Shown here piece after piece: positions 3,306 through 30,420 of a stretch of DNA of 64,000 nucleotides (its first letter is position 1; each line of letters opens with the position of its first letter). The stretch comes from Deltaproteobacteria bacterium (GTDB lineage Bacteria; Bdellovibrionota; Bdellovibrionia; Bdellovibrionales; JAMPXM01). The position numbers were made by a program, and so were the translations under genes. The stretch is from NCBI GenBank assembly GCA_017302795.1, contig JAFLCB010000001.1, forward strand, positions 310,001-374,000. Direction: 5' to 3'. The notes under the pieces were generated by a model. It worked only from the letters and a program-made list of their open reading frames with translations, searched no databases and had not been told where the DNA came from.

Positions 3306-3352
3306 TGCACTGTGATTGACCGGGACGGCAAAGCCAGCTTAGCTGATGGGCT

Positions 3353-4058: not shown

Positions 4059-4062
4059 AAAA

Positions 4063-4090
4063 CCCCGGCAAATGTGCCAGGGCTTTTTTT
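4063..4090 (+). terminator. Rho-independent terminator
   Basis: Arms ccccggca and tgccaggg (one mismatch) flank a 4-base loop and are followed by seven T residues. It lies just after the small lipoprotein stop and separates it from the convergent MotA-like gene. Confidence 0.8.
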
Positions 4091-4111
4091 GATCGACGAT
4101 CGAACAGCTCT

Positions 4112-5014: not shown

Positions 5015-5020
5015 GACGAC

Positions 5021-7021: not shown

Positions 7022-7211
7022 GGGCAATCTATCGGACCGGCTATTAAGAGAATTAAGTCTGGGAGTGGTCTGATTTCATTTACTCGACTTTTGGGCCTAG
7101 ACCTTGGGCAAGGCTAGTCCGGGTTTTTGCTATTTTGCTCAACCACTCGCTCGCATTGACCGAAATGAGTACAGAGCTGAAAAGCACGACGCAATTAAGC
7201 GAGGATCTGAC

Positions 7212-8792
7212 GTGACAGGAAATTCAGGATCAGACTTCAGAATAAAACTGCTAGTGGTTCATCCCGATGGCAGACGACAGAAGTTTCTAGTCACTTTTCC
7301 AGAGCGACGAACTCTGAAAATTGACCAACGGTACATTGGTTTGCCGCTCACACTGAGAGTGGACTTCGTACCGGGTTCTATCGTTTGTCGACCAGGCACT
7401 GGACACACTCTTACGATCGCTGGGAAACCAGTGAAAGAACATTCTTTGAATGTGAACGATGTCGTTGGCCTTGATCAATATTCTATTGAATTTCTAGAGC
7501 TGCCAGAGCCCCTTCCGATGGAAGAGGCAACTCGATTTGTATCAATCAATGAAATGATCGAAGCAACAGTTGTTGTTTCCTCACCGCCGAAAGACGACAG
7601 TGAGTTTACTCCACTACCGCAAGTTCCCAGTGCGCAGCTCCCATATGCTCCGCAGGCGCCGGCCGTTCGCACGAAAACGCCAACTCCTGCTCCACGTATT
7701 CCCGATGCTCCAATTGCATCACCACAAGCTGTTCAACAGCAGCCCGCTCCGCAACAAGCAGCATACAGTGAAGAACCGCGCCGTCCAGATCCTGAAGATT
7801 CAACGGCGATCATACGTCGACTTCAGGTTCCGGGAACGATGCCCGCAAGTCAGAATTCGTATTCAAACTACTCGACCCTCGAGCCTGCCAATCGAAGCGA
7901 TGCAACGTCGACTGGCACTTTCTCGCGCAACACACATACCGGGTTAAATACGGAAGCTGGAATGGAAAACCCGGATGGAGCACCTCCTACCGGAATTACA
8001 TTCAACAAAAAACATTTGATGATGGCCGGCGCTGCACTCGCAGTATTGGCAGGCTACCTTTTCATTAATCCCGCCAATTTCAAAGGATCAGGAACAAATC
8101 CGACTGAACTCTCCTCTGAGGCAGGCCCGGACTCGGCGAGTGCTCCAGCAGACCCTGCTGGTGAAATGAAGCCGATGGACATCCCTGATACTCAGGCGGC
8201 TTCTGCGCCTAAGACCGATAGCCCAGTGTCAGTTGACTCGGATCCAGCTGTCGTTCCAAATCAGGCTCTAATTCCTGCGCCAGTGCCAATGGCCACTGGT
8301 GGATCAAGTCCAATGGAGAGTCCGTTCGACGACAAGTCTGGATTCGATCCAATTGCTGTCGACCAGTTCTTTGATGCCGTTGATGCGGGTGACGAATCCA
8401 GAATTAAAGAACTCGTCGAAAAGCGAGTCGTCGACATCAACCTTTCTCGTCGAAGAGGCTATGCTGCACTTCATCTTGCCTCTGCCAGAGGTGATTTGGC
8501 GACTGTGAAATACTTGATTCGAATGAAAGCCGATACGAATGTTCTCGATGGATCAGGCGCGACGCCACTGATGTGGGCCGTGTTCCGTCGCCACGAGACT
8601 GTGGTGAAGTTCTTAGCGCCAAAGACGGATCTCAAGATCGCAAGGCAGGGTGGCGAAACAGCACATGATCTGGCTAAGCGAATGAAAATGACCCGCTTGC
8701 TAAAAACACTCGATCCAGAACCGAAAAAGACAGCCAAAAAGCGAGACACGAAAAAACGTGTCCCCACTGCCCTTCCAAACAAGAAAAAGTAA
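7212..8792 (+). CDS. Membrane protein with C-terminal ankyrin repeats
   Basis: The product is about 526 residues. An N-terminal globular region of about 100 residues (beta-rich, FHA-like in pattern but not confirmed) is followed by a long Pro/Ala/Gln-rich linker. A single membrane segment (MMAGAALAVLAGYLFI) comes next, then a Ser/Ala/Pro-rich stretch. The C-terminus has about three ankyrin-type repeats, including GYAALHLASARGDLATVKYL and GATPLMWAVFRRHETVVKFL, and then a lysine-rich tail. The GTG at 7212 with GAGGA seven bases upstream is preferred; a TTG at 7104 would give 562 residues without a good ribosome-binding site. It is divergent from the MotB-like gene, and its stop codon is one base from the convergent spoVR stop. 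Topology implies periplasmic ankyrin repeats. Function unknown. Confidence 0.75.
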   Translation: MTGNSGSDFRIKLLVVHPDGRRQKFLVTFPERRTLKIDQRYIGLPLTLRVDFVPGSIVCRPGTGHTLTIAGKPVKEHSLNVNDVVGLDQYSIEFLELPEPLPMEEATRFVSINEMIEATVVVSSPPKDDSEFTPLPQVPSAQLPYAPQAPAVRTKTPTPAPRIPDAPIASPQAVQQQPAPQQAAYSEEPRRPDPEDSTAIIRRLQVPGTMPASQNSYSNYSTLEPANRSDATSTGTFSRNTHTGLNTEAGMENPDGAPPTGITFNKKHLMMAGAALAVLAGYLFINPANFKGSGTNPTELSSEAGPDSASAPADPAGEMKPMDIPDTQAASAPKTDSPVSVDSDPAVVPNQALIPAPVPMATGGSSPMESPFDDKSGFDPIAVDQFFDAVDAGDESRIKELVEKRVVDINLSRRRGYAALHLASARGDLATVKYLIRMKADTNVLDGSGATPLMWAVFRRHETVVKFLAPKTDLKIARQGGETAHDLAKRMKMTRLLKTLDPEPKKTAKKRDTKKRVPTALPNKKK

Positions 8793-8793
8793 A

Positions 8794-10323
8794 TTAAGCT
8801 TCCCCTGAAGAAGCATCAGTTTTGGCATTCGCGTCGCCAATGGCGATTTCTTGTATTTCTGCACCATCGTGCCGATACAATTTCGTCTGTTCATCCTGCA
8901 CAGTCGCAATACAAACTGGACGCCCCCAGATTGATTGCAGATTCTTAAGAGTTTCACGCATGTAATCTGGTTGCATTTCGATGCCTTCAAACATGTGGGT
9001 CAATAGCAGTTCACCGCGATTTTCAAAGTTAGCATTTTCAACTTGAATAATCGGCTGACCGAAGTTTGTTAACTGAAACAACAGCTGCCGCTTAATCAAT
9101 GGGAAGTCACGCGTATCGACTTCATATTGCCCTGTGCGTTTATTAAATTTATAGACAAACATTTTGTTTTCGACGCAGAAATCTTCCGTCAAGAATTCAT
9201 CGATGAAGGTCACGTCATTATAGTTTCGACGAATTTCAAAAATCTTTTCGCGGCCGATTCCAAGTTTTTTGTCCCAGTTAAGCTTTAGACGAATGTCGTC
9301 GCACTCGTTCCATTCTTTGCCAAACTGCCCTTTGTTCCATCGATCTTCGATATTGCGGAAAAGCTCGATCCCGATTTTATAAGGATTAAAGCCGTTCGGC
9401 GACATCGCCATTGTACCCGAGTGCGCGTCGGCGAAATCAATAATTTCCGAATCGCTTAAGATGTCTTGAGTCATCATTTTCGAGTGCCAGTACGAAGCCC
9501 AGCCCTCATTCATAATCTTAGTCATTCCCTGGGGAGCGAAGTAATAAGCCTCATCGCGGATAATTGAAATGATGTCCTGCTGCCAGTTCTTGAGCGGCGC
9601 ATGATGCATCAGAAAGGCCAAAATATCACGCTGTGGCTCGCGGGGAAACTTCTCCATTCGAGTAGTTTCCGCCGCGGCCTTTTGCTTTTGATGTTCAACG
9701 AACTCGCGGGGATTGATGTATTCATCCATGTAATCGCGATTGGCCATTTTCAAAAGTGAAACGTCCGCAGTCTTTGGGTCGTCCGTCTTAGCCTGCTGCT
9801 GCGGCGTGCGCCGCTGCATATACGGCGAATGGCGATCGATCAGGTTTTCTAATGAAAGTACTTTATCAATAAAGTCTTCAACCGTATTGATTCCATAGCG
9901 ATCGATATAGCGCCGAATTCTTGTGGCGTGGTTTGCCACCTGGTCCATCATTTTTCTATTCGTGGGCGCAAACCACTGATTGTTTTTAAAGAAATCACAG
10001 TGACCATAGACGTGGGCCATGACGAGCTTCTGGTCCACCATGCGGTTGCCTTCCATAAGATAGGCATAGCAAGGGTCCGTGTTGACCACCATTTCATAGA
10101 TCTTGGAAAGGCCGTACTCGTAACTCTTAGAAAGCTGCTCGTACTCCATACCAAAGCGCCAGTGTGGATAACGCACGGGAAAACCCCCGTAAGCCGCAAA
10201 CTGGTTAATTTGATCGTACGTGATAATTTCGAAAATGGTCTCGAACATGTCGAGGCCATAGCCTTCTGCAACTTTCAAAATCTTGACGCGCCATTTTTCA
10301 AGTTCGGGCGTTAGGTTTGCCAT
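8794..10323 (-). CDS. ycgB: SpoVR family protein (YcgB-like)
   Basis: The 509-residue product matches the SpoVR/YcgB family in length (E. coli YcgB about 510) and in segments such as YPHWRFGMEYEQLSKSYEYG, NTDPCYAYLMEGN, VMAHVYGHCDFFKNN and EGWASYWHSKMM. B. subtilis SpoVR is needed for spore cortex formation, but non-sporulating bacteria carry the gene in a stress operon with prkA and yeaH, as here. Biochemical activity is not established. It is the last gene of the three-gene operon; its start (ATG at 10323) abuts the yeaH stop. Confidence 0.93.
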   Translation of the reverse strand: MANLTPELEKWRVKILKVAEGYGLDMFETIFEIITYDQINQFAAYGGFPVRYPHWRFGMEYEQLSKSYEYGLSKIYEMVVNTDPCYAYLMEGNRMVDQKLVMAHVYGHCDFFKNNQWFAPTNRKMMDQVANHATRIRRYIDRYGINTVEDFIDKVLSLENLIDRHSPYMQRRTPQQQAKTDDPKTADVSLLKMANRDYMDEYINPREFVEHQKQKAAAETTRMEKFPREPQRDILAFLMHHAPLKNWQQDIISIIRDEAYYFAPQGMTKIMNEGWASYWHSKMMTQDILSDSEIIDFADAHSGTMAMSPNGFNPYKIGIELFRNIEDRWNKGQFGKEWNECDDIRLKLNWDKKLGIGREKIFEIRRNYNDVTFIDEFLTEDFCVENKMFVYKFNKRTGQYEVDTRDFPLIKRQLLFQLTNFGQPIIQVENANFENRGELLLTHMFEGIEMQPDYMRETLKNLQSIWGRPVCIATVQDEQTKLYRHDGAEIQEIAIGDANAKTDASSGEA

Positions 10324-18090: not shown

Positions 18091-18804
18091 TCAGTCGCGG
18101 AATTCAAATCCAAAACGATCCGCTTGTTCGATCGGAAACGGCAAAACCGTTTGCAAATTGAAAAAGGCCCTTTCAAAAGGGCTATCAATCTTGGACGAGT
18201 CGAATTGGGCGGACGAAAAGTCACAAAGCTCGCAAAAGGAACCAACGAAATTCGTCCTCAGAAAGGTCGCCCCGCGAAAAGTCGTATCGAGTAAACGGGA
18301 ATTTTTAAACTCGCAGTCAATGAACTTCGCGCCGTTAAAATTGACACCTCGAAAATCGACATTCTCAAATTTAACGCCTGAAAATTCGGCAAATAGGAGC
18401 TCCGAATCCCAAATTTTTCCACCTTGGAAACTGATTTTAAACCAACGCATCCCATGGGCAGTTACCCAATCAAAGACCACGCCGTTGAATTCCGAGTCCC
18501 TGATGGTCCCGGCGATCATATTGTGATTTTCGATTTTAGCTCGTTTCAACTTAAGGCCGTTCGCCACTCCACATGGGCCCAAATGATTTTCCGAGACCCC
18601 CTTAACACCGGTGGAATCGACACAAGCACCGCTGGCGAGATTAAATCGAAAGCCTTTGTCGCCCTGCCGCCTCTGTGCAGGCACTTCGTAGCTAAATCGG
18701 TAGCTCCAGTCGGCAATCCAAAGCCCGAAAATGACCAAGACGAAAGTCCAGGCTATGACTGCGACCACAAACGGGTTCAATTTTCGGCCTGACTTGGGTG
18801 GCAT
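18091..18804 (-). CDS. Pentapeptide-repeat membrane protein
   Basis: The 237-residue product has one N-terminal membrane segment (VVAVIAWTFVLVIFGLWIA) and a C-terminal right-handed beta-helix of pentapeptide repeats with the A(D/N)LxX pattern. Examples are FAEFSGVKFENVDFRGVNFN and FKNSRLLDTTFRGATF. It is anchored with the repeats outside the cytoplasm. Pentapeptide repeats act as scaffolds; some mimic DNA and protect gyrase, but an extracytoplasmic placement argues against that here. No specific function is assigned. Confidence 0.8.
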   Translation of the reverse strand: MPPKSGRKLNPFVVAVIAWTFVLVIFGLWIADWSYRFSYEVPAQRRQGDKGFRFNLASGACVDSTGVKGVSENHLGPCGVANGLKLKRAKIENHNMIAGTIRDSEFNGVVFDWVTAHGMRWFKISFQGGKIWDSELLFAEFSGVKFENVDFRGVNFNGAKFIDCEFKNSRLLDTTFRGATFLRTNFVGSFCELCDFSSAQFDSSKIDSPFERAFFNLQTVLPFPIEQADRFGFEFRD

Positions 18805-18867
18805 TGGAACAGGTTCGTACCAATTTGATTCATATGCAAACGGGTCTTAATTTCCGCCACAATATAT

Positions 18868-18897
18868 TTGGCGCTTCCAAATGCTTTAACCTATTCT
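18868..18897 (+). promoter_or_regulatory. Candidate sigma70 promoter for dctP
   Basis: TTGGCG at 18868-18873 and TATTCT at 18892-18897 are 18 bases apart. A GC-rich dyad (cgccgc..gcggcg, 18944-18961) then precedes the ribosome-binding site of dctP and could fold in the leader. Confidence 0.4.
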
Positions 18898-18978
18898 AAT
18901 AATGTAGCAATCGCGGTGTTTCCTGCGGTTTGAGATTATCTACGCCGCCTAGGCGCGGCGCTTTATGAGGAGTTAACT

Positions 18979-20043
18979 ATGTTTCGTTCAATTGGCGCGT
19001 GTGTAGCAGCGCTGGCGCTTATAGCGAGCGTCGGCAAAGTGGCCGCAAGCCCAGCAGATGCAAATCCCACAGGAGGTCAGACAAAGGCAAAAGCTGAATT
19101 CAAAGTTCGGTGGCTTTTAGCTCATGAACCGGTCCGGGTTTTTGAACGTGCTGCTAAGCAATTTAAGAACGAAGTAGAATCTGCGTCTCAAGGTAAAATC
19201 GAAGTCGAAGTTCTAACGGTTTCGGAATACAAAGCCAAATATGGCATTGAAAAGAAATTCGTTGCCGACAACATCATCAACGACGTCGCATTGCTGAAAG
19301 CTGGCGGCATCGAAATGACTCAGACCTACACAACAGAGCTTGGACATTTGAATCCAAAAATGTGGGTTCTTGATTTGCCGTTCTTGTTCCGAGATCATGC
19401 CCACGCAAAAAAAGTGATGGATGGAGAAATCGGTCAACGAATTATGGCGGGCCTTTTAGAAAGTGATGTTCGGGGACTCGCATTCACCTATTCCGGTGGC
19501 TACCGAATCATTTCCACTCGCGACAAGGCACTTACGAAAGTGGACGATTTCAAAAATCTGACGATTAGAACGGCGCGAAGTCCTGTAGCAAAAGCGGTGT
19601 TCACAAAACTTGGAGCCGAAGTTGTTCCGATGAATCACGACGCCGGTATACAGAACGTAAAACGCGGATCGTTGATGGCCACAGAAACAACCGTCGCGCG
19701 ATTTGATGAGGCGCAAAGAGAGGCTACGCCGATCTTTAACGACACTCAGCACAGTCTCTTTTTGACCTCGATGGTGGTTAACGAAAAGTTTTTCGCGAAA
19801 CTCCCAGCAGCACTTCAAGACGTCGTTCGCACGGCGGCAAAAAATGCGGCAGAACTTGAACGTCAGGATTCTTTGACGGATGAGGCAAACCTTCGCAAAC
19901 AGTTCGCCAGTAGCGGAATGAAAATCGTCAGCATGGACAAAGCTGAGTTGAAAAAGATGAAGTCTTTGACGGCACCTTTGTACAACGACTTTAAGCCGAT
20001 GTTCGGAGCTGATCTTATTCAGGCCATCGAGCAGACGAAGTAA
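18979..20043 (+). CDS. dctP: TRAP transporter solute-binding protein, DctP family
   Basis: The 354-residue product has a signal peptide and DctP-family features: the N-terminal core FKVRWLLAHEPVRVFERAAKQF, the central DLPFLFRDHAHAKKVMDGE and FTYSGGYRIISTRDK. DctP proteins bind organic acids, most often through an arginine in the segment here reading LTIRTARSPV, and feed a DctQM membrane component using an ion gradient. No dctQ or dctM is adjacent, so it is an orphan receptor. The start has a strong GAGGAGTTAACT leader. It is followed by a terminator that lies within the 3' end of the convergent ligase gene. Substrate unknown. Confidence 0.88.
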   Translation: MFRSIGACVAALALIASVGKVAASPADANPTGGQTKAKAEFKVRWLLAHEPVRVFERAAKQFKNEVESASQGKIEVEVLTVSEYKAKYGIEKKFVADNIINDVALLKAGGIEMTQTYTTELGHLNPKMWVLDLPFLFRDHAHAKKVMDGEIGQRIMAGLLESDVRGLAFTYSGGYRIISTRDKALTKVDDFKNLTIRTARSPVAKAVFTKLGAEVVPMNHDAGIQNVKRGSLMATETTVARFDEAQREATPIFNDTQHSLFLTSMVVNEKFFAKLPAALQDVVRTAAKNAAELERQDSLTDEANLRKQFASSGMKIVSMDKAELKKMKSLTAPLYNDFKPMFGADLIQAIEQTK

Positions 20044-20059
20044 CCTAGCCGCGTACAAA

Positions 20060-21433
20060 TTATCGCGAAAACATAAGCCCGATCTCTGTGAGATCGGGCT
20101 TTCCATTTGAACGCCGCGGAATTCGATCTTCAAAACGCCAATTGCTTGGAATTTTTGCCGCCGACAAGACCTCGCGCAGGTGTTTTTCCAAATTCTGAAT
20201 CAGGACCGCCCGATCAGCTTTGGCCTCAACTACTATGACTGCCGCAACCGAACCCACTTCGCTATCACCGCGACGAGGTGCCTCTAACACGACGACTTCT
20301 TTTACCAGTCCCGTTTCTAAAATCGCGAGTTCAACCTCTTCTGGAGAAACTTTAAGCCCGCCGCGATTGATTTGTCTCTTCAGGCGCCCGGTTAAAACCA
20401 GCTGACCGTCGCTTCGAAGATAGCCGAGGTCGCCAGTGCTGTACCATTCTGATTGCGCTGCCTGCGGCAGCCACTCGCCCCAATAGCCGGCAAAAAGACT
20501 TTTAGTGGCGACGTAAATCTGTCCATCGGAATCTGTTCGGAACCTGGTTGACCACAATTCCCCATTGCCCACTGGAAACTCGTCGGCGCCGAGGGTGACC
20601 GGCGCATCCGAGACCCAGGAGGCCGTCTCAGTAAGACCATAGCAGTAAAAAACAGGAGCACCGGCCCATTGTGCAATTTCCGAAAAAAGCTTCTTGGTGG
20701 CGTGTGCAGAGGCCAACTGAACACGCTGCAGCGTTGAGCGCTTAGGAGGAGGACTAAAGCGAGCGATCAAACTCCAGGACGCCGGAGTGCCTGACACAAA
20801 GTCGACTTCATGCTGATCGATCCATTCCCCCACCCGTGACGCTTGTTGAAGATCTAACTTAGGTGCCAAAACAAGCGTGGTCCCATCTTGAATGGTCTGA
20901 AGGGCGACGCCAATAAGGCCGTGGCCAAAGTGAAGTGGCAAAGTACAAAGCGCCTTCTGCCTGCTGCCGATGGGAATCGCTTGGCGCGCGCTTGAAAGCC
21001 GCGCTAACAAATTTTCGTAACGGTGAATCACCGCTTTCGGAAGGGCCGAGGTGCCCGATGTGAAAAGAACCATCGCCGTATCAGTTGGAAGCGGTGGTCG
21101 GGCCCCGGCTAGTTGCCTATGCAGAGAAGAATCGACAATCCAATGCGGACTGATCGACGCGGCCAGGGCCTGGTGTTCGGAAGTCGTTTGAAATGCATCG
21201 ATGATAAAGGGGAAAGCACCCAACTGTTGAAGGGCGAAAAGAGCGATAAAGAAATCTGCGCGCGGCCGAGCAACGAGAATGACCCTCTGCCCTTTAAGGA
21301 CTCCCGCGCTTTGATACTCCAAGCGTCGAGCGGTAACTTGCTGCTGGAGCTCCAGTGCAGAAAAAGTCGAGCCTGTTTCCAGTTCGACGATTGCTGACTT
21401 TATTTGAAAAGCCGATGGGTCGATCATCTGCAT
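20060..21433 (-). CDS. ANL-superfamily AMP-forming acyl/aminoacyl ligase (DltA-class candidate)
   Basis: The 457-residue product has the ANL core motifs in order: the P-loop motif VLFTSGTSALPKAVIHRYEN, CYGLTETASW (A5-type), YSTGDLGYLRSDGQ (A7), LKRQINRGGLKVSPEEVE (A8) and the A10 lysine in RRSNGKPDL. These enzymes activate a carboxylate with ATP and transfer it to CoA or a carrier-protein thiol. The substrate cannot be read from sequence. It is divergent from the ABC operon with 58 bases between starts. The neighbouring MBOAT, SGNH-like and carrier-protein genes make a carrier-loading role (as in DltA) a reasonable inference. Its last codons overlap the dctP terminator. Confidence 0.8.
   Translation of the reverse strand: MQMIDPSAFQIKSAIVELETGSTFSALELQQQVTARRLEYQSAGVLKGQRVILVARPRADFFIALFALQQLGAFPFIIDAFQTTSEHQALAASISPHWIVDSSLHRQLAGARPPLPTDTAMVLFTSGTSALPKAVIHRYENLLARLSSARQAIPIGSRQKALCTLPLHFGHGLIGVALQTIQDGTTLVLAPKLDLQQASRVGEWIDQHEVDFVSGTPASWSLIARFSPPPKRSTLQRVQLASAHATKKLFSEIAQWAGAPVFYCYGLTETASWVSDAPVTLGADEFPVGNGELWSTRFRTDSDGQIYVATKSLFAGYWGEWLPQAAQSEWYSTGDLGYLRSDGQLVLTGRLKRQINRGGLKVSPEEVELAILETGLVKEVVVLEAPRRGDSEVGSVAAVIVVEAKADRAVLIQNLEKHLREVLSAAKIPSNWRFEDRIPRRSNGKPDLTEIGLMFSR
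20076..20104 (+). terminator. Rho-independent terminator of dctP, inside the convergent gene
   Basis: A perfect 11-bp inverted repeat (agcccgatctc/gagatcgggct, 3-base loop) is followed by a short T stretch. It lies 32 bases after dctP and within the last codons of the oppositely oriented ligase gene (stop at 20060), so coding sequence and terminator share the same DNA. Confidence 0.75.
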
Positions 21434-21491
21434 AGCATCAAAGGCCTTTGTGAGATTGTCATCCCATTCTCGCGAGTTCTAATGTTATGAC

Positions 21492-22574
21492 ATGGGAAAA
21501 TTTAAGTTTACCGTGGCTTCTCTTTTCGTTCTTGTCTCACTGTTCACCGGCGCCCCTTCCCTTGCGAGGAAAATCGACCCACCAGCGAAGGTGACCGTTG
21601 GAGTTTCGCCGGCCACCAGCACCGCGGGAATATTTTTTGCGCAAGAGATGGGATTCTTCAAAGACGAAAATCTTGATGTCGAACTGCAAGTGTTTCCGAC
21701 CAGCACGGCCCCGATGATTCCCCTTCTTGCGAAGGGTGATCTGGATGTCGGAGGCGGTGTCATAGCCGCAGGTTTGTTTTCTACTTCTCCGGAGGTCCAA
21801 GCCGGAATTTTACTGGTCGCTGACAAAGGATCCGTCAGAAAAAATGCTGACTATTTAAAGTTAATGGTCCGGACAGATCTGGTGACCTCCGGAAGGTACA
21901 AAGAGCTGAAGGACCTGAAGGGCTTTCGCGTCGGATTAACAGCCCTCGGGGGCACTTCCCAGGAGGCGACATTTGCATTGTTTTTGAAGAAAGCGGGTCT
22001 AACACCCAAGGACGTAACCTTCGTTAAGGCCGGCTACGCAGACGCCAACAAGGCATTCGCCTCGAAAGCTCTCGATGCTTATATTCAGATTGAACCCTAT
22101 CTGTCGGAAGCAGAAAAGTCAGGAGTTGCGAAAGTAGTCGCGGGAACTTACGAGATACATCCCGATCAACAATCCGCTGGTATTTTCTATTCTCCGCAGT
22201 TCGTGGCGAAACGCCGTGACATCGCAGTTCGATTTATGAGCGCTTATGTCCGCGGTTGCCGTGCGTATAACAAGGCGTTCCTTCCAGGGCGAATCGAAAA
22301 AGACTTCAACCGTGGAGTCGAGATTCTTACCAAATGGACAAGTGTAAAAGATCAGGCCATTTACAATACGATGATTCCGGCGGGACTTCATCCGGATGGA
22401 AAACTGAATCTGGATTCCATTCGATCAGATCTTCGATATTACTTCGAACAAAAATACTTAAAGTCAGAACCTGATCTTTCGAAGGTTGTCGACACAGGAA
22501 TATTGGAAGAAGCGCTGCTGGCTGTAGATGGACCCAAGCCAGGTAACACACCAACGCGAAAAAAAGTAAAGTGA
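21492..22574 (+). CDS. ABC transporter substrate-binding protein, NitT/TauT type
   Basis: The 360-residue product has a signal peptide ending near ALA-like APSLAR, then VTVGVSPATSTAGIFFAQEMGFF, KGDLDVGGGVIAAGL and GFRVGLTALGGTSQEATFALFL. That arrangement is typical of SsuA/TauA/NMT1-like periplasmic binding proteins for nitrate, sulfonates, taurine or thiamine precursors. Ligand specificity is not visible. It is the first gene of a tightly coupled operon: its stop overlaps the GTG start of the ABC ATPase gene by 4 bases. Confidence 0.85.
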   Translation: MGKFKFTVASLFVLVSLFTGAPSLARKIDPPAKVTVGVSPATSTAGIFFAQEMGFFKDENLDVELQVFPTSTAPMIPLLAKGDLDVGGGVIAAGLFSTSPEVQAGILLVADKGSVRKNADYLKLMVRTDLVTSGRYKELKDLKGFRVGLTALGGTSQEATFALFLKKAGLTPKDVTFVKAGYADANKAFASKALDAYIQIEPYLSEAEKSGVAKVVAGTYEIHPDQQSAGIFYSPQFVAKRRDIAVRFMSAYVRGCRAYNKAFLPGRIEKDFNRGVEILTKWTSVKDQAIYNTMIPAGLHPDGKLNLDSIRSDLRYYFEQKYLKSEPDLSKVVDTGILEEALLAVDGPKPGNTPTRKKVK

Positions 22575-23272
22575 ACGTCAGCAGGACGGCTCTTGAAATT
22601 CAAAACGTATCTTTAAGATATGAAGAGCGCTGGGTCTTAAAGGATTTATCGCTGTCAATTCAGGCTGGAGAGTTTATCTCGTTGCTTGGCGCAAGTGGCT
22701 CGGGGAAGTCTACGTTGCTTAAAGCGATTGTCGGTGAAATTCCACTAGCGAATGGCGAAATTTCCGGCCCCAAACGATATGCTTATGCTCCTCAGCGGGC
22801 CCCTCTGTTGCCCTGGTTGACTGTTCTTGAGAATTTGGAACTCGCTCGGTTGCCTTCGGAAGGTGTCGAAGAGTTTCGAAATCGAGCGAAATCTATGCTG
22901 AATCGGGCGGGTCTGCTAGAAGCTGAGAACGTGAAGGCCCACAAACTTTCTGGAGGAATGCGAGGGCGCGCAAGCGTCGCTCGGGCGTTTCTCATAATCG
23001 AGTCGCGGCCGGAAGTTCTTCTGATGGACGAGCCGTTTATCGGCCTCGATGTTGTGACCCGTGATCTTCTGCATGGATTGGTTCTGGAGCTATGGTCTTC
23101 AAAAAAACCAGCCTCGTTATTTGTCACGCACGACCTCGACGAAGCGATCAAACTTTCGAATCGGATTTTAGTGCTATCGAAAGACGGAACGAAATTCACC
23201 GTTGATCAGCCACTTACAGCCAGCACATCGGGCTCAGCCTTGCGGGCGCAGATTTATGAGGCGCTTCGATGA
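22571..23272 (+). CDS. ABC transporter ATPase, NitT/TauT type
   Basis: The 233-residue product has Walker A LLGASGSGKSTLL, the Q-loop region YAPQRAPLLPW, signature KLSGGMRGRASVARAFL, Walker B EVLLMDEPFIGLD and the H-loop SLFVTHDLDEAI. The signature is LSGGM where LSGGQ is usual. It pairs with the permease and binding protein to form an importer. The GTG start overlaps the upstream stop, and the stop overlaps the downstream ATG, so all three subunits are translationally coupled. Confidence 0.92.
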   Translation: MNVSRTALEIQNVSLRYEERWVLKDLSLSIQAGEFISLLGASGSGKSTLLKAIVGEIPLANGEISGPKRYAYAPQRAPLLPWLTVLENLELARLPSEGVEEFRNRAKSMLNRAGLLEAENVKAHKLSGGMRGRASVARAFLIIESRPEVLLMDEPFIGLDVVTRDLLHGLVLELWSSKKPASLFVTHDLDEAIKLSNRILVLSKDGTKFTVDQPLTASTSGSALRAQIYEALR

Positions 23273-24042
23273 AATTAAAATCGTTTTACGGACTTATTGG
23301 ACTCTTTTTCTTGCTCGCGTTGGCAGAAACACTCGGCCGCTTGGAACTTATCGACGCTCGCTATTTCCCTTACCCCAGTAGCGCGATTCGTCGGCTGGCA
23401 CAGCTCATTGCGACCAATGAAGATTCGAGCTCGGGTTTATTCCGCGAACATCTTGCGGCTAGCGCCTGGCGTTTTTCAATTGGTGTCGTTCTTGCCGTTG
23501 CCATTAGCCTCGTTTTGACAATGGCCTCCGGCATAAGTGAAGTTTCAAAGAGACTTAGCTCGGCGGTCATCGGCTTTTTGTATCCGTTGCCGAAGTCCGC
23601 CGTGTTTCCGCTTTTACTTTTGGTGTTTGGTTTAAATGGCGGCGCTCACATTGCACTCATCACCATTGGCTCTGTTGCGATGATGCTCGCGACCACGCTG
23701 GCCGGGCTGCAAAGACTTGAGGCGGCAGGCTACATGGAGGTCGTGCGGATCCTGAAGCTTCGGCCCTGGATCACGGCAAAGAAAGTTCTGTTGCCAGGTC
23801 TACTTCCCGAGTTCATGCATGGAATCAAGCTTGGCGCGAGCTACGCACTTGTCCTACTTCTCGTAGGGGAAATGATCGTCACCCGGCAAGGTGTTGGGGT
23901 GTTTCTTTGGGCCGCATGGGATCAGTTTAATATCTTAGATCTTTACGCCATGTTTTACCTTGTTAGCGTTATCGGCTTTCTATTGTTCGGAGTGTTCGAC
24001 TACTTGGGTGAACGCTTTTCCGATTCGCAGCGGGCGGTGTAG
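23269..24042 (+). CDS. ABC transporter permease, NitT/TauT type
   Basis: The 257-residue integral membrane protein has about six hydrophobic segments and the EAA-type loop region containing LRPWITAKKVLLPGLLPEFMHGIKLGASYALVLLLVGEM, which matches the SsuC/TauC family. It forms the channel with the ATPase. Its TAG stop is immediately followed by the TTG start of the MBOAT gene with no spacer, linking import to acyl transfer. Confidence 0.9.
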   Translation: MKLKSFYGLIGLFFLLALAETLGRLELIDARYFPYPSSAIRRLAQLIATNEDSSSGLFREHLAASAWRFSIGVVLAVAISLVLTMASGISEVSKRLSSAVIGFLYPLPKSAVFPLLLLVFGLNGGAHIALITIGSVAMMLATTLAGLQRLEAAGYMEVVRILKLRPWITAKKVLLPGLLPEFMHGIKLGASYALVLLLVGEMIVTRQGVGVFLWAAWDQFNILDLYAMFYLVSVIGFLLFGVFDYLGERFSDSQRAV

Positions 24043-25467
24043 TTGGATTTTTTGTCATGGGGCACTTTTTTGGCGGCGATCGCAATTGGCGGCATGGCCG
24101 TTTCCATCCCGACCATCCACCGGCACAAACTGTTCTTCTTTATGAATCTGCTTATGGGATTCGCCTTCCTAGGGTACTCGTTTATCCCTTTGCTGTTCGT
24201 TGGCTTGCTTCTTTTTCCGTTTCTCAAACACCTACGAGGGCCGCACGGAAGTAAATTGGTTTATCCGCTATGCTTGCTCAGTATTGCGCCGCTGATCGCC
24301 TTAAGATCAGAAATCGATCTCAGCTGGCGAGGTGTTTGGCTGTCCGCCAGTCTCGCTTTTTTCTGCCTCCAAAACTGCGGAGCGGTTTTTGAAATATTTT
24401 GGGGAAAGGCCGACGCTCCCAAGTCGGTTCTTCATTGGATGAGCTTTTCGGCTTTTTTCCCGTCTCTTGTCGCTGGTCCTGTCGGTCGGTGGAGCGCACT
24501 GGGGCCTCAGCTGGAATCACCCAGAAGTTTTCATGCAGAAGACGGGCGCGAATATATTTTTCTTTTAGCCCAGGGAATTTTTAAAAAAATCGTGTTTGCA
24601 GCGCCATTGTACTTTGTTATCGACCGATTTTTTGCCGCACCGAAAGAGTTTGGCTTGATTGCCGCCTTGGTGGTCTCGTTTCTATTTAGATATGCAGTAT
24701 GGGCCGATATCTCGGCCCATACTGACTGGGCGCAAGGGATCGCTCGAATACTTGGCATTCGTTTATGTTCTAATTTCGACAATCCCTTTCACACCGCGCG
24801 CCTTGCTGACTTCTGGCGCCGTTGGCATAGCAGCTTATCGCGATGGCTACAAGATTTCGTATTTATGCCGATTGCCTTTGGCCCGCTTCGAAGGTTGATA
24901 CCCGCAAACATTGCAATGGTGGTTGCGCTTTTGATCGCTTTTATTTGCCTCGGCCTATGGCACGGACTTGCAGCTGGCTTCCTCGTTATGGGTCTGTACA
25001 AAGGGGTTGGGGTTTTGGTCGCCGAGTGGCTTTGGAAGTCCTTGGACAGAAAACATATTGCGTTTCAAATCATCAAAATCTTTTCTGGCGCTGCGATGAT
25101 GGTCGTCTTCATGGTTTTTCCTACTCTGCTCATTCGTATGAGTCTCGATGATGCGATTCACATCTTCACGTCTTCAGATCTCTTTTGGCCAACGAGCTGG
25201 CTGAAGCTTACGGCCGCCTACGACGCCGAAGATCTTACACACAAAGTTCTTTGGCCAACCTTCGCAATTGCAGTCGCATTTGAATGTTTGCAACACGTAT
25301 CTAAAATGAAGAAAAACCAAGGCATCGTTGAAACATCTGAGCCCTGCTCATTAGTTTCCCCGTTCAGCACATGGACGCAGGTTGCGATTATCAGTACTGC
25401 GATCGTAATATTCTTTGTGTTTGGATCATTTTCAACATGGTTAGGGTTCAGCTATGTTAACCACTGA
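24043..25467 (+). CDS. MBOAT-family membrane acyltransferase (DltB-class candidate)
   Basis: The 474-residue polytopic protein has the MBOAT signature: ADFWRRWHSSLSRWLQDFVF, followed by a long hydrophobic region and CLGLWHGLAAGF, in which His307 is the conserved catalytic histidine (numbered from the TTG start). MBOAT proteins of the DltB/AlgI branch transfer acyl groups from a cytoplasmic donor to an acceptor outside the inner membrane. The TTG at 24043 abuts the permease stop codon; the nearest in-frame ATG would remove part of the first membrane segment. The gene overlaps the SGNH-like gene by 14 bases. Confidence 0.9.
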   Translation: MDFLSWGTFLAAIAIGGMAVSIPTIHRHKLFFFMNLLMGFAFLGYSFIPLLFVGLLLFPFLKHLRGPHGSKLVYPLCLLSIAPLIALRSEIDLSWRGVWLSASLAFFCLQNCGAVFEIFWGKADAPKSVLHWMSFSAFFPSLVAGPVGRWSALGPQLESPRSFHAEDGREYIFLLAQGIFKKIVFAAPLYFVIDRFFAAPKEFGLIAALVVSFLFRYAVWADISAHTDWAQGIARILGIRLCSNFDNPFHTARLADFWRRWHSSLSRWLQDFVFMPIAFGPLRRLIPANIAMVVALLIAFICLGLWHGLAAGFLVMGLYKGVGVLVAEWLWKSLDRKHIAFQIIKIFSGAAMMVVFMVFPTLLIRMSLDDAIHIFTSSDLFWPTSWLKLTAAYDAEDLTHKVLWPTFAIAVAFECLQHVSKMKKNQGIVETSEPCSLVSPFSTWTQVAIISTAIVIFFVFGSFSTWLGFSYVNH

Positions 25468-26503
25468 GCAGAGAACCTATTTCAGATTTTCGGTTCACGT
25501 AGTGACGCTGATTTCATTAACGGTGGGTGCCGTCGCGATTTTCACTTATATCGTGTCCGATAGAATGCTTGGCTATCAACACCAAATGATTAAGTTCCAC
25601 CGGGAGCTCATTAACGGGCAGTACGACCATTTGAAGGATCAGGATCTTTTGATCATCGGCGACTCGACAGCCGCTCAAAGTTTGATTCCTAGCGAATTTC
25701 GACGCGTGCGGGCTGTTTCGCTTGCCTCGTCGGCAGCTGGCGCCATCGAGTCCTACTACCTTTTGCGTGAATACCTCAAGAAAAACGGAAAACCGCGCTG
25801 TGTGCTTCTTCTGACTTCATACGGCGCCCGACAATTTCATATAAATACTGTTTTCTGGCCGTTCATTGTTGGGCACGGACTTTTGTCGTATGACCAGATT
25901 GTCGATTACTATGACATTTCAAAAAAATTGAACGAGTGGCCTGGCAACGCGATGTCGCCGATTTCAGCTCGAGCCCGGATCTTTTCAGAGCGATTTCAAT
26001 ATTTCGTCCAGTTTGGAATATTTAACCAAGCGGTTTTCCAGCCCAATCTCATGTTTAACCACCCTCAAAGATCGTACAGGATATTTCGGAGATCTTATGG
26101 CGGCGGCCCGCTCCTTCGGCGGCCAGAATGGCTAAATATCCCGTTTGATGGACCTAACCAAGAATATTTAAAGAGTGAGTTTCAGCCGAGTCCAGCGTTG
26201 GATCACTATATACAGAAGATTCTTCAACTCACCAAAGAGCGCGGGATCCGGTTTTATTCTGATTACGGCCCGGTTGCGGCCTCCATGAGAAACGAAACGT
26301 CCAGCAGCTGGCTTCGGAGCGCTATACAGCACATCGAGGGTTTGATAAAGCCATTTGACCACGCGAAAAGTCTTCTGGATTTAGAGTGGTATGTTGACAC
26401 TTCTTTTTCCGACAGTACTCACTTAAACTGGAATGCCGCCCGTAAGTACTCCGCGAAAGTCGATGAGGAAGTAAGCGACTGTGCTGCATCATCTTCGCGG
26501 TAG
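25454..26503 (+). CDS. SGNH/DltD-like extracytoplasmic esterase-transferase
   Basis: The 349-residue product has an N-terminal membrane segment and then LLIIGDSTAAQSLIP, the block I motif of SGNH hydrolases with Ser71. The end of the protein has a D..H pair (Asp320, His323 in SDSTHLNWNAARKYS). The segment between is unlike a typical lipase, as in DltD and AlgX-type proteins. DltD-like proteins act with MBOAT partners to complete acyl transfer in the envelope. The MBOAT gene upstream overlaps it by 14 bases, and its own 3' end overlaps the convergent carrier-protein gene by 15 bases. Confidence 0.8.
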   Translation: MLTTEQRTYFRFSVHVVTLISLTVGAVAIFTYIVSDRMLGYQHQMIKFHRELINGQYDHLKDQDLLIIGDSTAAQSLIPSEFRRVRAVSLASSAAGAIESYYLLREYLKKNGKPRCVLLLTSYGARQFHINTVFWPFIVGHGLLSYDQIVDYYDISKKLNEWPGNAMSPISARARIFSERFQYFVQFGIFNQAVFQPNLMFNHPQRSYRIFRRSYGGGPLLRRPEWLNIPFDGPNQEYLKSEFQPSPALDHYIQKILQLTKERGIRFYSDYGPVAASMRNETSSSWLRSAIQHIEGLIKPFDHAKSLLDLEWYVDTSFSDSTHLNWNAARKYSAKVDEEVSDCAASSSR

Positions 26504-26737
26504 CTGATTGAGAATTGCCAGAATCTCCTCGAAAGAGTTCGCCGAAGTCGCTTCTGCAAACGAGAACCGAACTCTGAACTCGGCTTCAATCGCATTAACA
26601 AGTTCGATATGCTTTAGGGAGTCCCAGGGAGCCGTTCCTCGCCTTAGCTGCAAAAGTCTCTCCTGCGAGGAGCCTTGAAATTGCTGTTCGAATACCTGAG
26701 CGAGACTTTTTTCTGATTTAGAATTCGAACTATTCAT
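26489..26737 (-). CDS. Stand-alone acyl/peptidyl carrier protein (DltC/ACP-like)
   Basis: The 82-residue acidic-helical protein has the carrier signature WDSLKHIELVNAIEAEF, with Ser40 placed to accept 4'-phosphopantetheine. ACP and DltC are about 78 residues. The stretch before the motif is Gln/Ser-rich. It is not a fatty-acid ACP by context (no fab genes are nearby). Its ATG overlaps the last bases of the penicillin-acylase-type gene by 8 bases, so the two are translationally coupled. Given the ANL ligase and MBOAT genes, it probably carries the activated acyl or aminoacyl group. Confidence 0.82.
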   Translation of the reverse strand: MNSSNSKSEKSLAQVFEQQFQGSSQERLLQLRRGTAPWDSLKHIELVNAIEAEFRVRFSFAEATSANSFEEILAILNQLPRR

Positions 26738-29069
26738 TCTCGTCGCCTTTAAATGGTAACACGTCGTAAAGATCCCGGTTCGACCAATCTAGAGACCAGT
26801 TTGTTGACCACGGTGAGCTGGGATCGCCGTCAACTCCGCCGATAGATGAGAACTTAACCTCTGGAGGGTCAGTCACTTTCGCGACCCATCGAAAAACAGT
26901 TCCGTGATCTCTTGCTTGAGAAAATAAACTGAAGCCATTTCCCGCGACCCGCAATTTATCCATTTCTGAAGGGATCTCGCCCGAGAGCGAGGTGAAAACC
27001 GGCCGGGAGGCCAATTGCCATTGATAGGCTTCGATTTTAGCTAAGTCATCGCCGAATTCACTTTTGCACATTTCAGACAAGACGGAGGAAACAAATTTTT
27101 TCCTGCCACCTACAGGCGCCCAGACTTTACTTTCTTCCGTCTCGGCTATTAGTTCGACGGTCCGCCATCGATCTGGCCATTCAAATGTTCTTTCGTCGCC
27201 TAGCCAGGATCTCCACAGTTTCCTGTGTATCACCGCCATCCATGTATTGAACAGCCGCGCACGATAAGAGTCCTTTTCGAAGCGTCCATCCCAAAGTCGA
27301 ATTTCGTTTAAGATTCGGCCCTCACACTGGTTGGGACTGCTTTCAATTTGTTCGGTTAACCGCAGAAGCGGACCGCGAACCACTTCGGTCCTCGAGTCTT
27401 CGATGTCTGCCTGTCCATTCGCCACTTCGTCGAAGGTTACATTCTTCTTTTCAAAAAAAAGTTCGTTCATGCGCATGGCCCGCAGGGGCGGTGAAAAGTT
27501 CCATCCGAGATAGTAAGGTCCGCGATTGGACATGATTTTTTGATTCCCCAATGCATAGAATTCTTTTGCAGGAAAAACCGCCGGATTATTTTTCGCATCT
27601 AAAAACTCGTGCCAAACGTCTTTGTCGGAGGTTGCCTCGGTCAAAATTCGCGGGTCGCTAGTAAGGTTCCTTTTCGGAATATGGCCCGTTACCCATACTC
27701 CCTGTCGACCTTTTGAATCAACACAAGTAACCACGAACCAACCCAAAGTGCGTATGAAATTCTCGCCGCCACATTCTTCCGCGGTTTCCAGATTTGGCAG
27801 GCGTAGCGACGGAAAGATAAAATTTAGTTCAGTGCTACCAGCCCACCGGTAGGCCAGTTCTGTGACCACCCCTTTAGAGTTTCTAATCGCGGGAATCATG
27901 GGTCCCGCGGCCGAAATCCTTCTTTTTATTTCTACGTCGGCTCCTCCTCGCACTTTCAAAGTTTTTTTGAGGACGTCAAACTTGCGAAACGTTCCATTCC
28001 AAAGATATTCATTTGGATTTTCGGGATTTATTTTTAGCCGATACCAATCGGTGGTATCAACGAGGGCTGCAACAAAGCCGACACCCACTTTTCCATTTGT
28101 ACCGGCCGAAACTCCAGGCTGCCCAGGTATTGTTGCGCCTAAAAACCGTTTTCCATCCAAATTTAAGACCATCGGCATATATAGACCGGGAAGATGATAG
28201 TGGATGTGAAAGTCATTGGCGATCATCGGCTTCCCGTCGGAGGAACGATCTGCACCTATGACCCACGCGTTGCTTCCAGAATCGGGCCGGCCGCGAACCC
28301 AACTCTTGTGCAAAGGATCGCTGGGAATCTCATCCAACGAAATGACAGATTTGGATTTCGGGCGCTTGGGCATGGCCGCTGTGGTCGGTCCAAAAAGCTG
28401 AGCTGGCTCGTCGTGTTGGGGAAGCCAAGGAAACAACCGGTCAAAAATTTCCGCCGGAAGTTTAGCATGGGTACGGGAGAGCCGCAGCTCAATGTACGGA
28501 TCCGTTAAAACCATGTTTTTCGAGTAACTGATTCGGACAACATCCAACACAGAAAACTGCCGAGGCCGAACACCAAATTTTTTATATTCGAAAGGTAGCT
28601 GTCCGTCCTTCAGTTGGCCGACTCGGGCGTTGATGCCCGCCGCATAAGCCTCAATAATCGCTTTGAGGCGGCCGTCCGAAATGTGCTGTTGACTCACCTT
28701 TTGCGCGATCTCATCATACCCAACTAAATAGGCCGACCGATCAAAGATGAGGCCACGTTCGCCGATCATTTCCGCCATTGACCCCTCGACTAAACGAACA
28801 AATGTCTCCATCTGCCAAAGTCGAAAATAGGCGTGCGCGAAGCCTTGTGCAAAATAGAGATCCTCTTCTGTTTTTCCCGAAAGGTGCGGAACCGCATTTA
28901 TATCAAGAGAAGCTTTTGACGTCCGACCATTTTCGGAAACAGCCCTCACAAGCGCATTTGAAAAATCATCGCTAAACGTGCGATGATCTGTCCTTGAAGC
29001 GCATGAAAGTTGCGCAAGGACCGACGAGAGGGCGATCAAAACAATTCCTACTCGAGCACTGCCGAACAT
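26730..29069 (-). CDS. Penicillin-acylase-family Ntn hydrolase, predicted lipoprotein
   Basis: The 779-residue product has an N-terminal signal with lipobox SVLAQLSC. Its central PDSGSNAWVIGADRSSDGKP provides the nucleophile serine (Ser266) at the start of the beta chain, followed by the canonical oxyanion and ligand region TDWYRLKINPENPNEY. Members self-cleave between alpha and beta chains and hydrolyse amide bonds of N-acyl substrates (penicillin G, acyl-homoserine lactones, or acyl tails on natural products). The ATG at 29069 was preferred over the GTG at 29084 because it places the lipobox normally. It leads into the carrier-protein gene with overlap. The true substrate cannot be told. 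Confidence 0.85.
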   Translation of the reverse strand: MFGSARVGIVLIALSSVLAQLSCASRTDHRTFSDDFSNALVRAVSENGRTSKASLDINAVPHLSGKTEEDLYFAQGFAHAYFRLWQMETFVRLVEGSMAEMIGERGLIFDRSAYLVGYDEIAQKVSQQHISDGRLKAIIEAYAAGINARVGQLKDGQLPFEYKKFGVRPRQFSVLDVVRISYSKNMVLTDPYIELRLSRTHAKLPAEIFDRLFPWLPQHDEPAQLFGPTTAAMPKRPKSKSVISLDEIPSDPLHKSWVRGRPDSGSNAWVIGADRSSDGKPMIANDFHIHYHLPGLYMPMVLNLDGKRFLGATIPGQPGVSAGTNGKVGVGFVAALVDTTDWYRLKINPENPNEYLWNGTFRKFDVLKKTLKVRGGADVEIKRRISAAGPMIPAIRNSKGVVTELAYRWAGSTELNFIFPSLRLPNLETAEECGGENFIRTLGWFVVTCVDSKGRQGVWVTGHIPKRNLTSDPRILTEATSDKDVWHEFLDAKNNPAVFPAKEFYALGNQKIMSNRGPYYLGWNFSPPLRAMRMNELFFEKKNVTFDEVANGQADIEDSRTEVVRGPLLRLTEQIESSPNQCEGRILNEIRLWDGRFEKDSYRARLFNTWMAVIHRKLWRSWLGDERTFEWPDRWRTVELIAETEESKVWAPVGGRKKFVSSVLSEMCKSEFGDDLAKIEAYQWQLASRPVFTSLSGEIPSEMDKLRVAGNGFSLFSQARDHGTVFRWVAKVTDPPEVKFSSIGGVDGDPSSPWSTNWSLDWSNRDLYDVLPFKGDENE

Positions 29070-29091
29070 TGTTCCATCATACACAGCTCTC

Positions 29092-30420
29092 TCATTGTGT
29101 ACGACGCCAAATTACAAACGATTTGCTTTGCGGACGAACTTCAACATTTCGAATGCTGGCAGCAAGACTATTGCCCTCGCTTGGAGCAAATGCCCCTCCG
29201 CTTTGCAGCTGGATCCTGTAGCTTCCCGCTTTCAACGGAATCCGCGCCACTTGGAAGGCTGAGGGAAGCATCGACCACTGGCGAAGATCCGCGCGATCGG
29301 CCAAATTCATCGCAATCCATGCAAGCTGTCCTAAAACATTGTCCTTTTGTCGAAGCTGGTCAGCCAATACCGCTTTAGCCGCAACGCCAGCGATTCTTGA
29401 TCCCACCAATCGCGCAAAATCCCCGTCGAGGGCCTTAATCGCTACCTCGTCGATCGAGTAGATTTCACTTCCGCTAGCATAGGCCTCGAGCTTTCCAGTA
29501 TCGATGGCTTCACCGTTGATGGGTACATTTTCACCCGAGCGCTTGGCCGCCACAGAAACCCCAAGTATCGGATGATCGTAAGTAATCGAAACTAACTTCG
29601 GAAATCGGGGACTTTCGGGGCGCGGCTGTTTACGTGGCCCCCAGCCGTGAAGGTAAAGGACAACGATTTCGCCCATATTCCGATCGCGCCACTCTGGCCG
29701 AATGACAACTTCCGGAAATGCTTTCTTCCACTTTTCGACCTCCTCTGGCCTTTGAGCGCGAACTGCCGATCGAATCAGGTCTTCGCGGAGTGGCTTGTAC
29801 AGAGGAGCGACATCGTAGGTATTTTTATAAGCAATGTAGGCGTCATCGAACTTTCGATCCGATTCCCAAATCATAGCACCCAAATAGAATGCCAACGGGC
29901 TTTGATTAAAATCTTTTTTGCCATCGATTCTCAATTTGGTCAGCTTCTCATTGACCCGTCGAACCTCAACAAGTGCCTCATCAAGCCGGCCCATTGCCAG
30001 AAAGTTGAGGGCGTTCATATTATTGATCAGAACCTTCTCGAAATCTTCCCCTTTGTACTGAACCATTTCTTCGCTGAGCGCCAACGAGCCCGCGACATTC
30101 GTAATGGAATGGTAGTCCTTTAGATCCGCAAGCATTTCGGCGCGCAAAAATGCCCTGACGCTATCTTCAAATCGTCCGGCAGTTTGAAGCGCGGTTGCAT
30201 AGTCGAGAAGGTAAACAAGTTGATCGCGCCCCTCTTCGTCCGCGAGAGGCTTAAGTTTCTCTGCTGCTTGCTCGGGATCGGAAATCAAAAGTCGGCGCGC
30301 ATCTTCGACCTTGGTTTGGTAGGTAGCGCAGCCGACCTGTAGAATGACAAACGTGATCGCTCCTACAATCGCACCAACATTCCTGATTGGAATTCGCCAG
30401 AACATCGGTGCGAGCATCAT
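29092..30420 (-). CDS. COG3014-type lipoprotein
   Basis: The 442-residue product has a lipobox ITFVILQVGCATYQ and an alpha-helical, TPR-like N-terminal half. Segments such as VYLLDYATALQTAGRFEDSVRAF and FYLGAMIWESDRKFDDAYIAY show the repeat pattern. The C-terminal half is beta-rich. Length, layout and position next to an LpoB-like gene match the COG3014 family by recollection of gene neighbourhoods. It is 15 bases downstream of that gene. Its role with the PBP activator is inferred, not shown. Confidence 0.7.
   Translation of the reverse strand: MMLAPMFWRIPIRNVGAIVGAITFVILQVGCATYQTKVEDARRLLISDPEQAAEKLKPLADEEGRDQLVYLLDYATALQTAGRFEDSVRAFLRAEMLADLKDYHSITNVAGSLALSEEMVQYKGEDFEKVLINNMNALNFLAMGRLDEALVEVRRVNEKLTKLRIDGKKDFNQSPLAFYLGAMIWESDRKFDDAYIAYKNTYDVAPLYKPLREDLIRSAVRAQRPEEVEKWKKAFPEVVIRPEWRDRNMGEIVVLYLHGWGPRKQPRPESPRFPKLVSITYDHPILGVSVAAKRSGENVPINGEAIDTGKLEAYASGSEIYSIDEVAIKALDGDFARLVGSRIAGVAAKAVLADQLRQKDNVLGQLAWIAMNLADRADLRQWSMLPSAFQVARIPLKAGSYRIQLQSGGAFAPSEGNSLAASIRNVEVRPQSKSFVIWRRTQ

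Follow-up and report, generated by a model that had tools for sequence, protein, structure and literature searches.

We analyzed a 64,000-nt stretch of DNA (the window; positions 310,001 to 374,000 of contig JAFLCB010000001.1, assembly GCA_017302795.1) from a member of the phylum Bdellovibrionota, focusing on a gene cluster in which a Dlt-like acyl-transfer relay (an ANL ligase, a stand-alone acyl carrier protein [ACP], an MBOAT acyltransferase, and an SGNH-type transferase) adjoins an ATP-binding cassette (ABC) importer. The cluster had been proposed by a model that saw only the DNA letters and their open reading frames (ORFs), hereafter the sequence-only reading. ORF calls, Pfam and NCBIfam searches, and AlphaFold models for two weak cases confirmed all of its ORFs, at the same coordinates and in the same protein classes (Table 1), except that the acylase gene starts with a GTG at 29084, the position 29069 used before being a later start. 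Its gene list held but was incomplete: a near-constant partner, an orphan solute-binding protein of the TRAP type (DctP family), had been left out, and the inserted block runs from 18091 to 29084.

The solute-binding protein (SBP), ATPase, and permease genes encode NMT1-type, ABC, and BPD proteins that all exceed the Pfam cut-offs and thus form a complete NitT/TauT ABC importer set. We found that the transferase genes are indeed coupled behind this importer, as the sequence-only reading had claimed. Specifically, SBP and ATPase genes as well as ATPase and permease genes overlap by 4 bp, no gap separates permease from MBOAT, and MBOAT and SGNH genes overlap by 14 bp, so that the (+) strand operon SBP-ATPase-permease-MBOAT-SGNH is abutting or overlapping throughout, with zero intergenic space. 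The carrier gene runs antiparallel to this operon, overlapping the SGNH stop by 15 bp and, as also described earlier, the acylase stop by 8 bp. Scans of the region for promoters and terminators gave no signal above that of shuffled sequences.

Table 1. Coordinates of the cassette and of the features within it
Feature	Position	Strand	Evidence and remarks
Inserted cassette, ~11 kb	18091..29084	.	between phaR-like gene (ends 18016) and COG3014-type lipoprotein gene (29092-30420)
Pentapeptide-repeat protein, membrane-anchored	18091..18804	-	weak pentapeptide-repeat matches; ortholog at same position in G294
DctP-family (TRAP-type) solute-binding protein, orphan	18979..20043	+	PF03480 3e-48
ANL (AMP-forming) ligase	20060..21433	-	AMP-binding PF00501 5e-36, plus PF13193; pocket motif LPLHFGHGLI
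NMT1/SsuA-type periplasmic binding protein (SBP) of ABC importer	21492..22574	+	NMT1 1e-19; PF09084, PF13379
Importer ATPase, NitT/TauT type	22571..23272	+	PF00005 (ABC_tran) 3e-25; best NCBIfam models SaoA/TauB/NtrCD, all below cut-off
Importer permease	23269..24042	+	PF00528 (BPD_transp) 3e-10; SsuC/TauC-like
MBOAT acyltransferase, TTG start	24043..25467	+	PF03062 7e-8, above cut-off; RWH (H262), GLWHG (H307)
Predicted acyl-shuttle hexapeptide FSYVNH (Tyr471), FXYXXF variant, MBOAT C-terminus	25447..25464	+
SGNH-type transferase, membrane-anchored	25454..26503	+	Ser71 (GDST), Asp320/His323 (DSTH)
Acyl carrier protein	26489..26737	-	predicted phosphopantetheine site Ser40 in WDSLKH; PF00550 weak, 0.016
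Penicillin-acylase-family Ntn hydrolase	26730..29084	-	PF01804 (Penicil_amidase) 2e-117; predicted nucleophile Ser271, GSNAW

Block insertion and recurrence of the system in the phylum

The cassette holds the genes for the pentapeptide-repeat protein, DctP, ligase, importer, MBOAT, SGNH protein, carrier, and acylase. Its flanks adjoin without it, in the same order, in a genome of the same genus (G231; 326-bp gap) and in one of the same family (G239), where LpoB-COG3014 is followed by phaR and TPR genes (L182/L183); therefore, the block is best read as one insertion. Gene coordinates place the flanking genes close together in other family members as well, and loss in several relatives would be the less parsimonious account. 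Base composition was discarded as evidence of transfer, as the G+C content of the cassette (0.494) falls within the range of its flanks. In another genome of the genus (G294; metagenome-assembled genome KLAP46, CAUJGS01; L069), gene order is identical from a histidine kinase through the phaR-like gene, with the SBP 70% and the MBOAT 42% identical to those of the window.

Next, we searched a sample of 291 genomes of the phylum. The SBP search yielded 10 strong orthologs outside the window's own genome (E ≤ 1e-68; next hit, 1.7e-13), which were 41-47% identical, and the DctP-type search yielded strong orthologs in nine genomes (E at most about 1e-60). All nine DctP genomes were among the 10 SBP genomes (hypergeometric p = 2.8e-16, uncorrected for relatedness); since most of the latter belong to a single genus, fewer cases are effectively independent. 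The SBP-bearing genomes come from several families and from both of the classes sampled. Co-occurrence of the two binding proteins, in nine of 290 genomes and surrounded by genes for ligase, carrier, and MBOAT or SGNH protein, is thus strong, contrary to the lack of co-occurrence that the sequence-only reading had named as a refutation.

The gene arrangement recurs in G294 and, with the order changed, in about ten other genomes, which argues that it did not arise by chance. In G292 (JAEUWE01), SBP-ATPase-permease-MBOAT-SGNH is followed by carrier and DctP genes on the opposite strand, with the ligase on a separate contig. Two genomes hold compact versions: SGNH-DctP, carrier-ligase, and MBOAT-SBP-ATPase-permease lie within 8 kb in G238, and carrier-ligase, MBOAT-SBP-ATPase-permease-SGNH, and DctP within 7.5 kb in G208. 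G111 has an SGNH gene, a ligase with the carrier fused at its C-terminus, and MBOAT-SBP-ATPase-permease; G272 has SBP-ATPase-permease-ligase-carrier and DctP; G229 has permease-ATPase, SBP, MBOAT, carrier, and ligase; G282 has MBOAT-carrier-DctP; and G289 has the importer on one contig and ligase-DctP on another. Taken together, clustering and co-occurrence across the phylum tie the Dlt-like relay to the importer both physically and evolutionarily, in agreement with the original proposal.

The MBOAT of G229 is split into two ORFs (L142, 10641-12068), which may reflect decay of the system in this genome or an assembly error. In G170, a 2839-aa ORF lies immediately upstream of the importer ortholog (L152, G170:C2, 10853-19372). 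A scan of the whole collection with patterns from an SBP alignment returned only two genomes of the same genus, both already known, because patterns built from three sequences were too narrow.

Ligase and carrier

Phylogenetic analysis placed the system ligases in one supported clade (97/88), apart from the fatty acyl-CoA ligases and the nonribosomal peptide synthetase (NRPS) domains of the phylum; clustering with either had been named beforehand as the result that would speak against a dedicated acyl-transfer system. The amino-binding Asp of amino-acid-activating enzymes (LSFDI/CFDVA position) is Gly or Ser (FGHG/FSHG) in 10 of 10 aligned system ligases, while it is retained in the NRPS domains of the phylum and in other carrier-linked ligases (L077 and L140). 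The D-alanine-type chemistry suggested by the Dlt analogy thus finds no support, given the replacement of the residue that anchors the amino acid in DltA and NRPS ligases. System ligases share a conserved FGHGLI-type motif and keep the C-terminal Lys, and their best NCBIfam matches are long-chain acyl-CoA ligase models. Ligase orthologs occurred only in importer-bearing genomes of the sample (at least 556 bits, compared with 217 for the next best hit; the high scorers were part of the profile).

The carrier (82 aa) was predicted to adopt a four-helix ACP fold (AlphaFold pLDDT 85; TM score of 0.7-0.8 to ACPs), and the W, D, S, and H of its WDSLxH motif are invariant in 15 homologs. Ligase and carrier form a single protein in G111. 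In G203, a ligase C-terminus is likewise fused to a carrier, followed by an MBOAT with the tail FVYMVF (L184, G203:C88, 8902-10775); the importer was not found in G203. These two fusions argue that the ligase loads this carrier. Among solved structures, the carrier profile best matched 2lml (E = 3.5e-18), with DltC a weak match (3.5e-4). The 2lml sequence contains WDSLSH, so that WDSLxH around the phosphopantetheine serine is common to both proteins. We take 2lml to be Geobacter GmACP3, of which WDSLxH is presumably the noted motif. The title of a 2011 report by Ramelot et al. (in the reference list of PMC4847154) proposes a role of the ACP in lipopolysaccharide biosynthesis, and we know of no importer linked to it.

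MBOAT, shuttle tail, and SGNH protein

The MBOAT matched only DltB among solved structures (6bug; E = 4e-30), and both conserved His motifs are present (Table 1). Against the DltB equivalog model TIGR04091, it scored 127.9 bits, compared with a cut-off of 375; since unrelated MBOATs of the phylum score 106-169, all alike, this score was rejected as evidence of membership in Dlt. Comparison with the Dlt families upheld the stand-alone carrier with its phosphopantetheine serine, but neither the DltB cut-off nor a DltA-type Asp.

In DltX and PatA, a C-terminal FXYXXF motif carries the acyl group on its Tyr and hands it to the SGNH serine (PMC12148441). The MBOAT of the window has such a tail (FSYVNH), and those of other system members read FIYSHY, FVYSIF, FIYSNY, and FLYYAF; the tail of G292, FLYAPIGQ, is two residues longer. 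In comparison, most other MBOATs of the phylum end in FIYFQF. The lack of intergenic space in the operon and the shuttle motif at the MBOAT C-terminus leave no room for a DltX. Because the carrier is conserved with the system and the MBOAT tail matches the FXYXXF shuttle, the best reading is an MBOAT that is fed by the carrier and bears the shuttle as its own C-terminal tail.

The SGNH protein (349 aa, one N-terminal hydrophobic segment) exceeded the cut-off of no Pfam family, and a profile search of solved structures gave no match; only fold comparison of the AlphaFold model (pLDDT 86) led to DltD, with 3bma (E = 8.6e-4), 7dxm, and 6o93 as the nearest structures. The DltD family PF04914 did not match the window protein and narrowly missed its G111 ortholog (1.5e-4; 21.7 bits, just below the cut-off of 22.7). 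Among 14 homologs, H323 is invariant and S71 and D320 are nearly so.

Importer, DctP protein, and candidate acyl group

Two different system SBPs retrieved the same small set of plasmid proteins (about 120 bits or more, compared with at most about 74 for others), which share 30-39% identity with them. All six annotated plasmid loci lie in clusters resembling those for the breakdown of aromatic or aryl-hydroxy acids. Specifically, the SBP gene accompanies UbiD/UbiX in Aromatoleum; ring-hydroxylating dioxygenases with PdxA-like and pcaD genes in Rhodococcus; a Rieske oxygenase and a VanB-like reductase in Arthrobacter; a ring dioxygenase, a 4-hydroxybenzoate monooxygenase, and a catechol dioxygenase in Thermus; a ring dioxygenase in Phyllobacterium; and, as the least clear case, a thiamine pyrophosphate enzyme, an alpha-hydroxy acid oxidase, and an amidohydrolase in Rhizobium. 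Plasmid relatives of the ligase and of DctP were only generic. On the basis of these SBP relatives and of a ligase that does not look amino-acid-like, we tentatively put forward an imported aromatic carboxylate as the candidate acyl group.

A DctM search detected no DctM in the window's own genome, G294, G292, or G229, which leaves the DctP of the window an orphan. The own genome also carries a DctP paralog elsewhere (35% identity; L186, G000:C6:279001-291299, 8590-9732). The conserved TRAP Arg was dropped as evidence of a carboxylate ligand, as it is not invariant among the DctP orthologs.

Proposed mechanism and alternative explanations

Starting from what we observe in gene content, co-occurrence, block insertion, catalytic and shuttle motifs, and predicted carrier and SGNH folds, we propose that the cluster probably encodes an MBOAT-SGNH system that acylates the envelope, depends on a carrier, and is coupled to import of the acyl donor it uses, with the catalytic steps, acyl group, and acceptor predicted. 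The ABC importer, possibly aided by the orphan DctP, would bring in a carboxylic acid other than an alpha-amino acid, for which an aromatic carboxylate is plausible; the ligase would adenylate the acid and then load it onto the phosphopantetheine of the WDSL carrier. At the cytoplasmic face, the MBOAT would take the acyl group from the carrier thioester onto its own Tyr471, and the SGNH protein would pick it up on Ser71 and pass it as an ester to an envelope acceptor. A more specific salvage-and-decorate scheme, in which two different binding proteins of the periplasm capture an exogenous aromatic acid and, after its import and activation on the carrier, the shuttle-tailed MBOAT aroylates an envelope polymer with it, is possible but doubtful.

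Several observations weigh against the proposed donor-coupled acylation system. The last shuttle residue in the window is His and not a Phe/Tyr-type aromatic, and the first SGNH protein of G292 carries Asn at the position expected for Asp320. The system MBOATs were not monophyletic in a quick tree with long branches, which implies either exchange of the transferase pair or repeated assembly of the system. Both G246 and G187 have the importer, but their ligase-carrier genes adjoin a gene for a 490-498-aa membrane protein, with no MBOAT found beside them, and in G170 the importer stands without the rest of the system nearby, one MBOAT lying on another short contig. The aromatic candidate rests on relatives of 30-39% identity, whose ligands may differ, and the importer and acylation genes could be co-regulated parts of different pathways. 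The membrane protein of G246 and G187 (L145, 6947-8418; L150, 5697-7193) matched no Pfam or NCBIfam family and is possibly an alternative transferase in the place of the MBOAT.

The arrangement in G170, where neither ligase nor MBOAT is near the importer, speaks for the idea that importer and acylation genes are neighbors with separate jobs, i.e., nutrient uptake by the ABC importer and DctP, and acylation with an internally made acid. This idea would also account for the wide spacing of importer and DctP, or their location on separate contigs, in several genomes and for DctM occurring elsewhere in genomes of the other class. We nevertheless consider it unlikely, given the restriction of ligase orthologs to importer-bearing genomes, the adjacency of ligase, carrier, and importer in most genomes despite reordering, and the single operon of importer and MBOAT-SGNH genes in three genomes of the same genus. 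It is similarly improbable that carrier and ligase belong to a pathway for small molecules or lipids (a secondary metabolite or the recycling of fatty acids), with the MBOAT-SGNH pair acylating a lipid and not a polymer: the ligase does not group with the fatty acyl-CoA ligases of the phylum, the cassette has no ketosynthase or other chain-building gene, and the SGNH protein is DltD-like and membrane-anchored, even though the carrier profile is closest to the 2lml ACP with its reported lipopolysaccharide connection and the ligase best matches long-chain acyl-CoA ligase models.

The sequence-only reading had assigned the acylase the role of trimming or recycling the acyl groups added by the MBOAT-SGNH pair. 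The gene does overlap the carrier gene and rides on the same inserted block; however, only the window and G294 show such a linkage and all other clusters of the system lack the gene, while paralogs (28-31% identity) are widespread and sited away from the system. Moreover, penicillin amidases hydrolyze amides and not O-esters, and the predicted product here is an ester. Trimming is thus very unlikely, and the acylase, rejected as a core part on account of its confined linkage, is an accessory gene of this lineage. Here alone, it may cleave amides in the periplasm to free acids for import, which suits its chemistry better. It appears quite unlikely as well that the genes form a true Dlt/Dra-type system, which would attach D-alanine or another amino acid, delivered by the importer, to a Gram-negative envelope. 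The four protein classes are the same, DltB and DltD are the nearest structures of the MBOAT and SGNH protein, and Dlt loci are known from Gram-negative bacteria. The ligases speak against it, with Gly or Ser in place of the amino-binding Asp in all ten, as do a DltB score that misses the cut-off and is no better than that of other MBOATs of the phylum and an operon without space for DltX.

Comparison with known systems

The cluster resembles Dlt (DltA, DltB, DltC, DltD, and DltX) in having an adenylating ligase, a stand-alone carrier, an MBOAT with the conserved His, and an SGNH protein of the DltD fold. It differs in that the system ligase lacks the amino-acid Asp, the shuttle Tyr is on the MBOAT rather than on DltX, and the host is Gram-negative and couples the relay both to an importer and to an orphan binding protein of the TRAP type. 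According to excerpts of the respective papers, the Dlt-like dra locus of Bordetella (PMC4448142) and the dltB, dltA, and dltC genes (dltBAC) of Dickeya (PMC3544676) are Gram-negative examples annotated for D-alanine; unlike here, neither an importer nor DctP is mentioned in these excerpts, and the ligase of our system is not amino-acid-like. The importer resembles the NitT/TauT importers of aromatic-acid clusters, with an SBP-ATPase-permease trio and a related SBP. Those importers sit with ring dioxygenases or UbiD, whereas this one accompanies an acyl-transfer relay and no gene for degradation.

The sequence-only reading had placed Dlt-like loci in a few Gram-negative bacteria; carrier-type MBOAT loci are more widely spread, as several occur in this phylum, including in the window's own genome. 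Carrier-linked MBOAT loci without an importer, with other ligases or none, recur in L072, L080, L086, and L185; the importer link and the distinct ligase clade set the present system apart from them. Two more loci of the own genome each encode an MBOAT next to an ANL ligase, together with a large protein that is SGNH-like: L192 (G000:C1:460001-478000, 4874-10141; tail FYYMRL), which also has a carrier, and L193 (G000:C3:347001-364000, 5490-9652; tail FIYFGF). A second recurrent module, comprising an ATP-grasp protein, a pyridoxal phosphate-dependent decarboxylase, a WDS carrier, a fatty acid desaturase, a 416-420-aa membrane protein without family, and an SGNH protein, looks like another carrier-based pathway (L146 [G246:C130], 1-7251; L148, 12267-16733; compare L072, 1-5508); it adjoins DctP in G246. 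Searches of open-access full text, which leaves subscription papers outside its coverage, turned up neither a report of this kind of system among the relatives of Bdellovibrio nor any account of an importer accompanying a carrier-fed MBOAT.

MBOAT-SGNH envelope acylation has been divided into two branches, one carrier-fed with a separate DltX (Dlt) and one acyl-CoA-fed with an MBOAT-fused shuttle (PatAB and others); systems other than Dlt use acyl-CoA and have no carrier protein (PMC12148441). Like PatA/PatB, and AlgI/AlgJ/AlgX, in O-acetylation (PMC12148441), the present system pairs an MBOAT bearing a C-terminal FXYXXF-type tail with a separate SGNH transferase; unlike PatAB-type systems, it has a dedicated ligase and carrier that are conserved with this pair. 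The system thereby unites a carrier-fed donor side with a fused shuttle, a ligase that does not look amino-acid-like, and a tie to an importer. If the proposal is true, there are bacteria that attach acids acquired from their surroundings to their own surface, and predatory-bacterium lineages offer a testable route to new envelope ester chemistry. By the features tested, the system is Dlt-like on the donor side and PatAB-like on the shuttle, and a member of neither.

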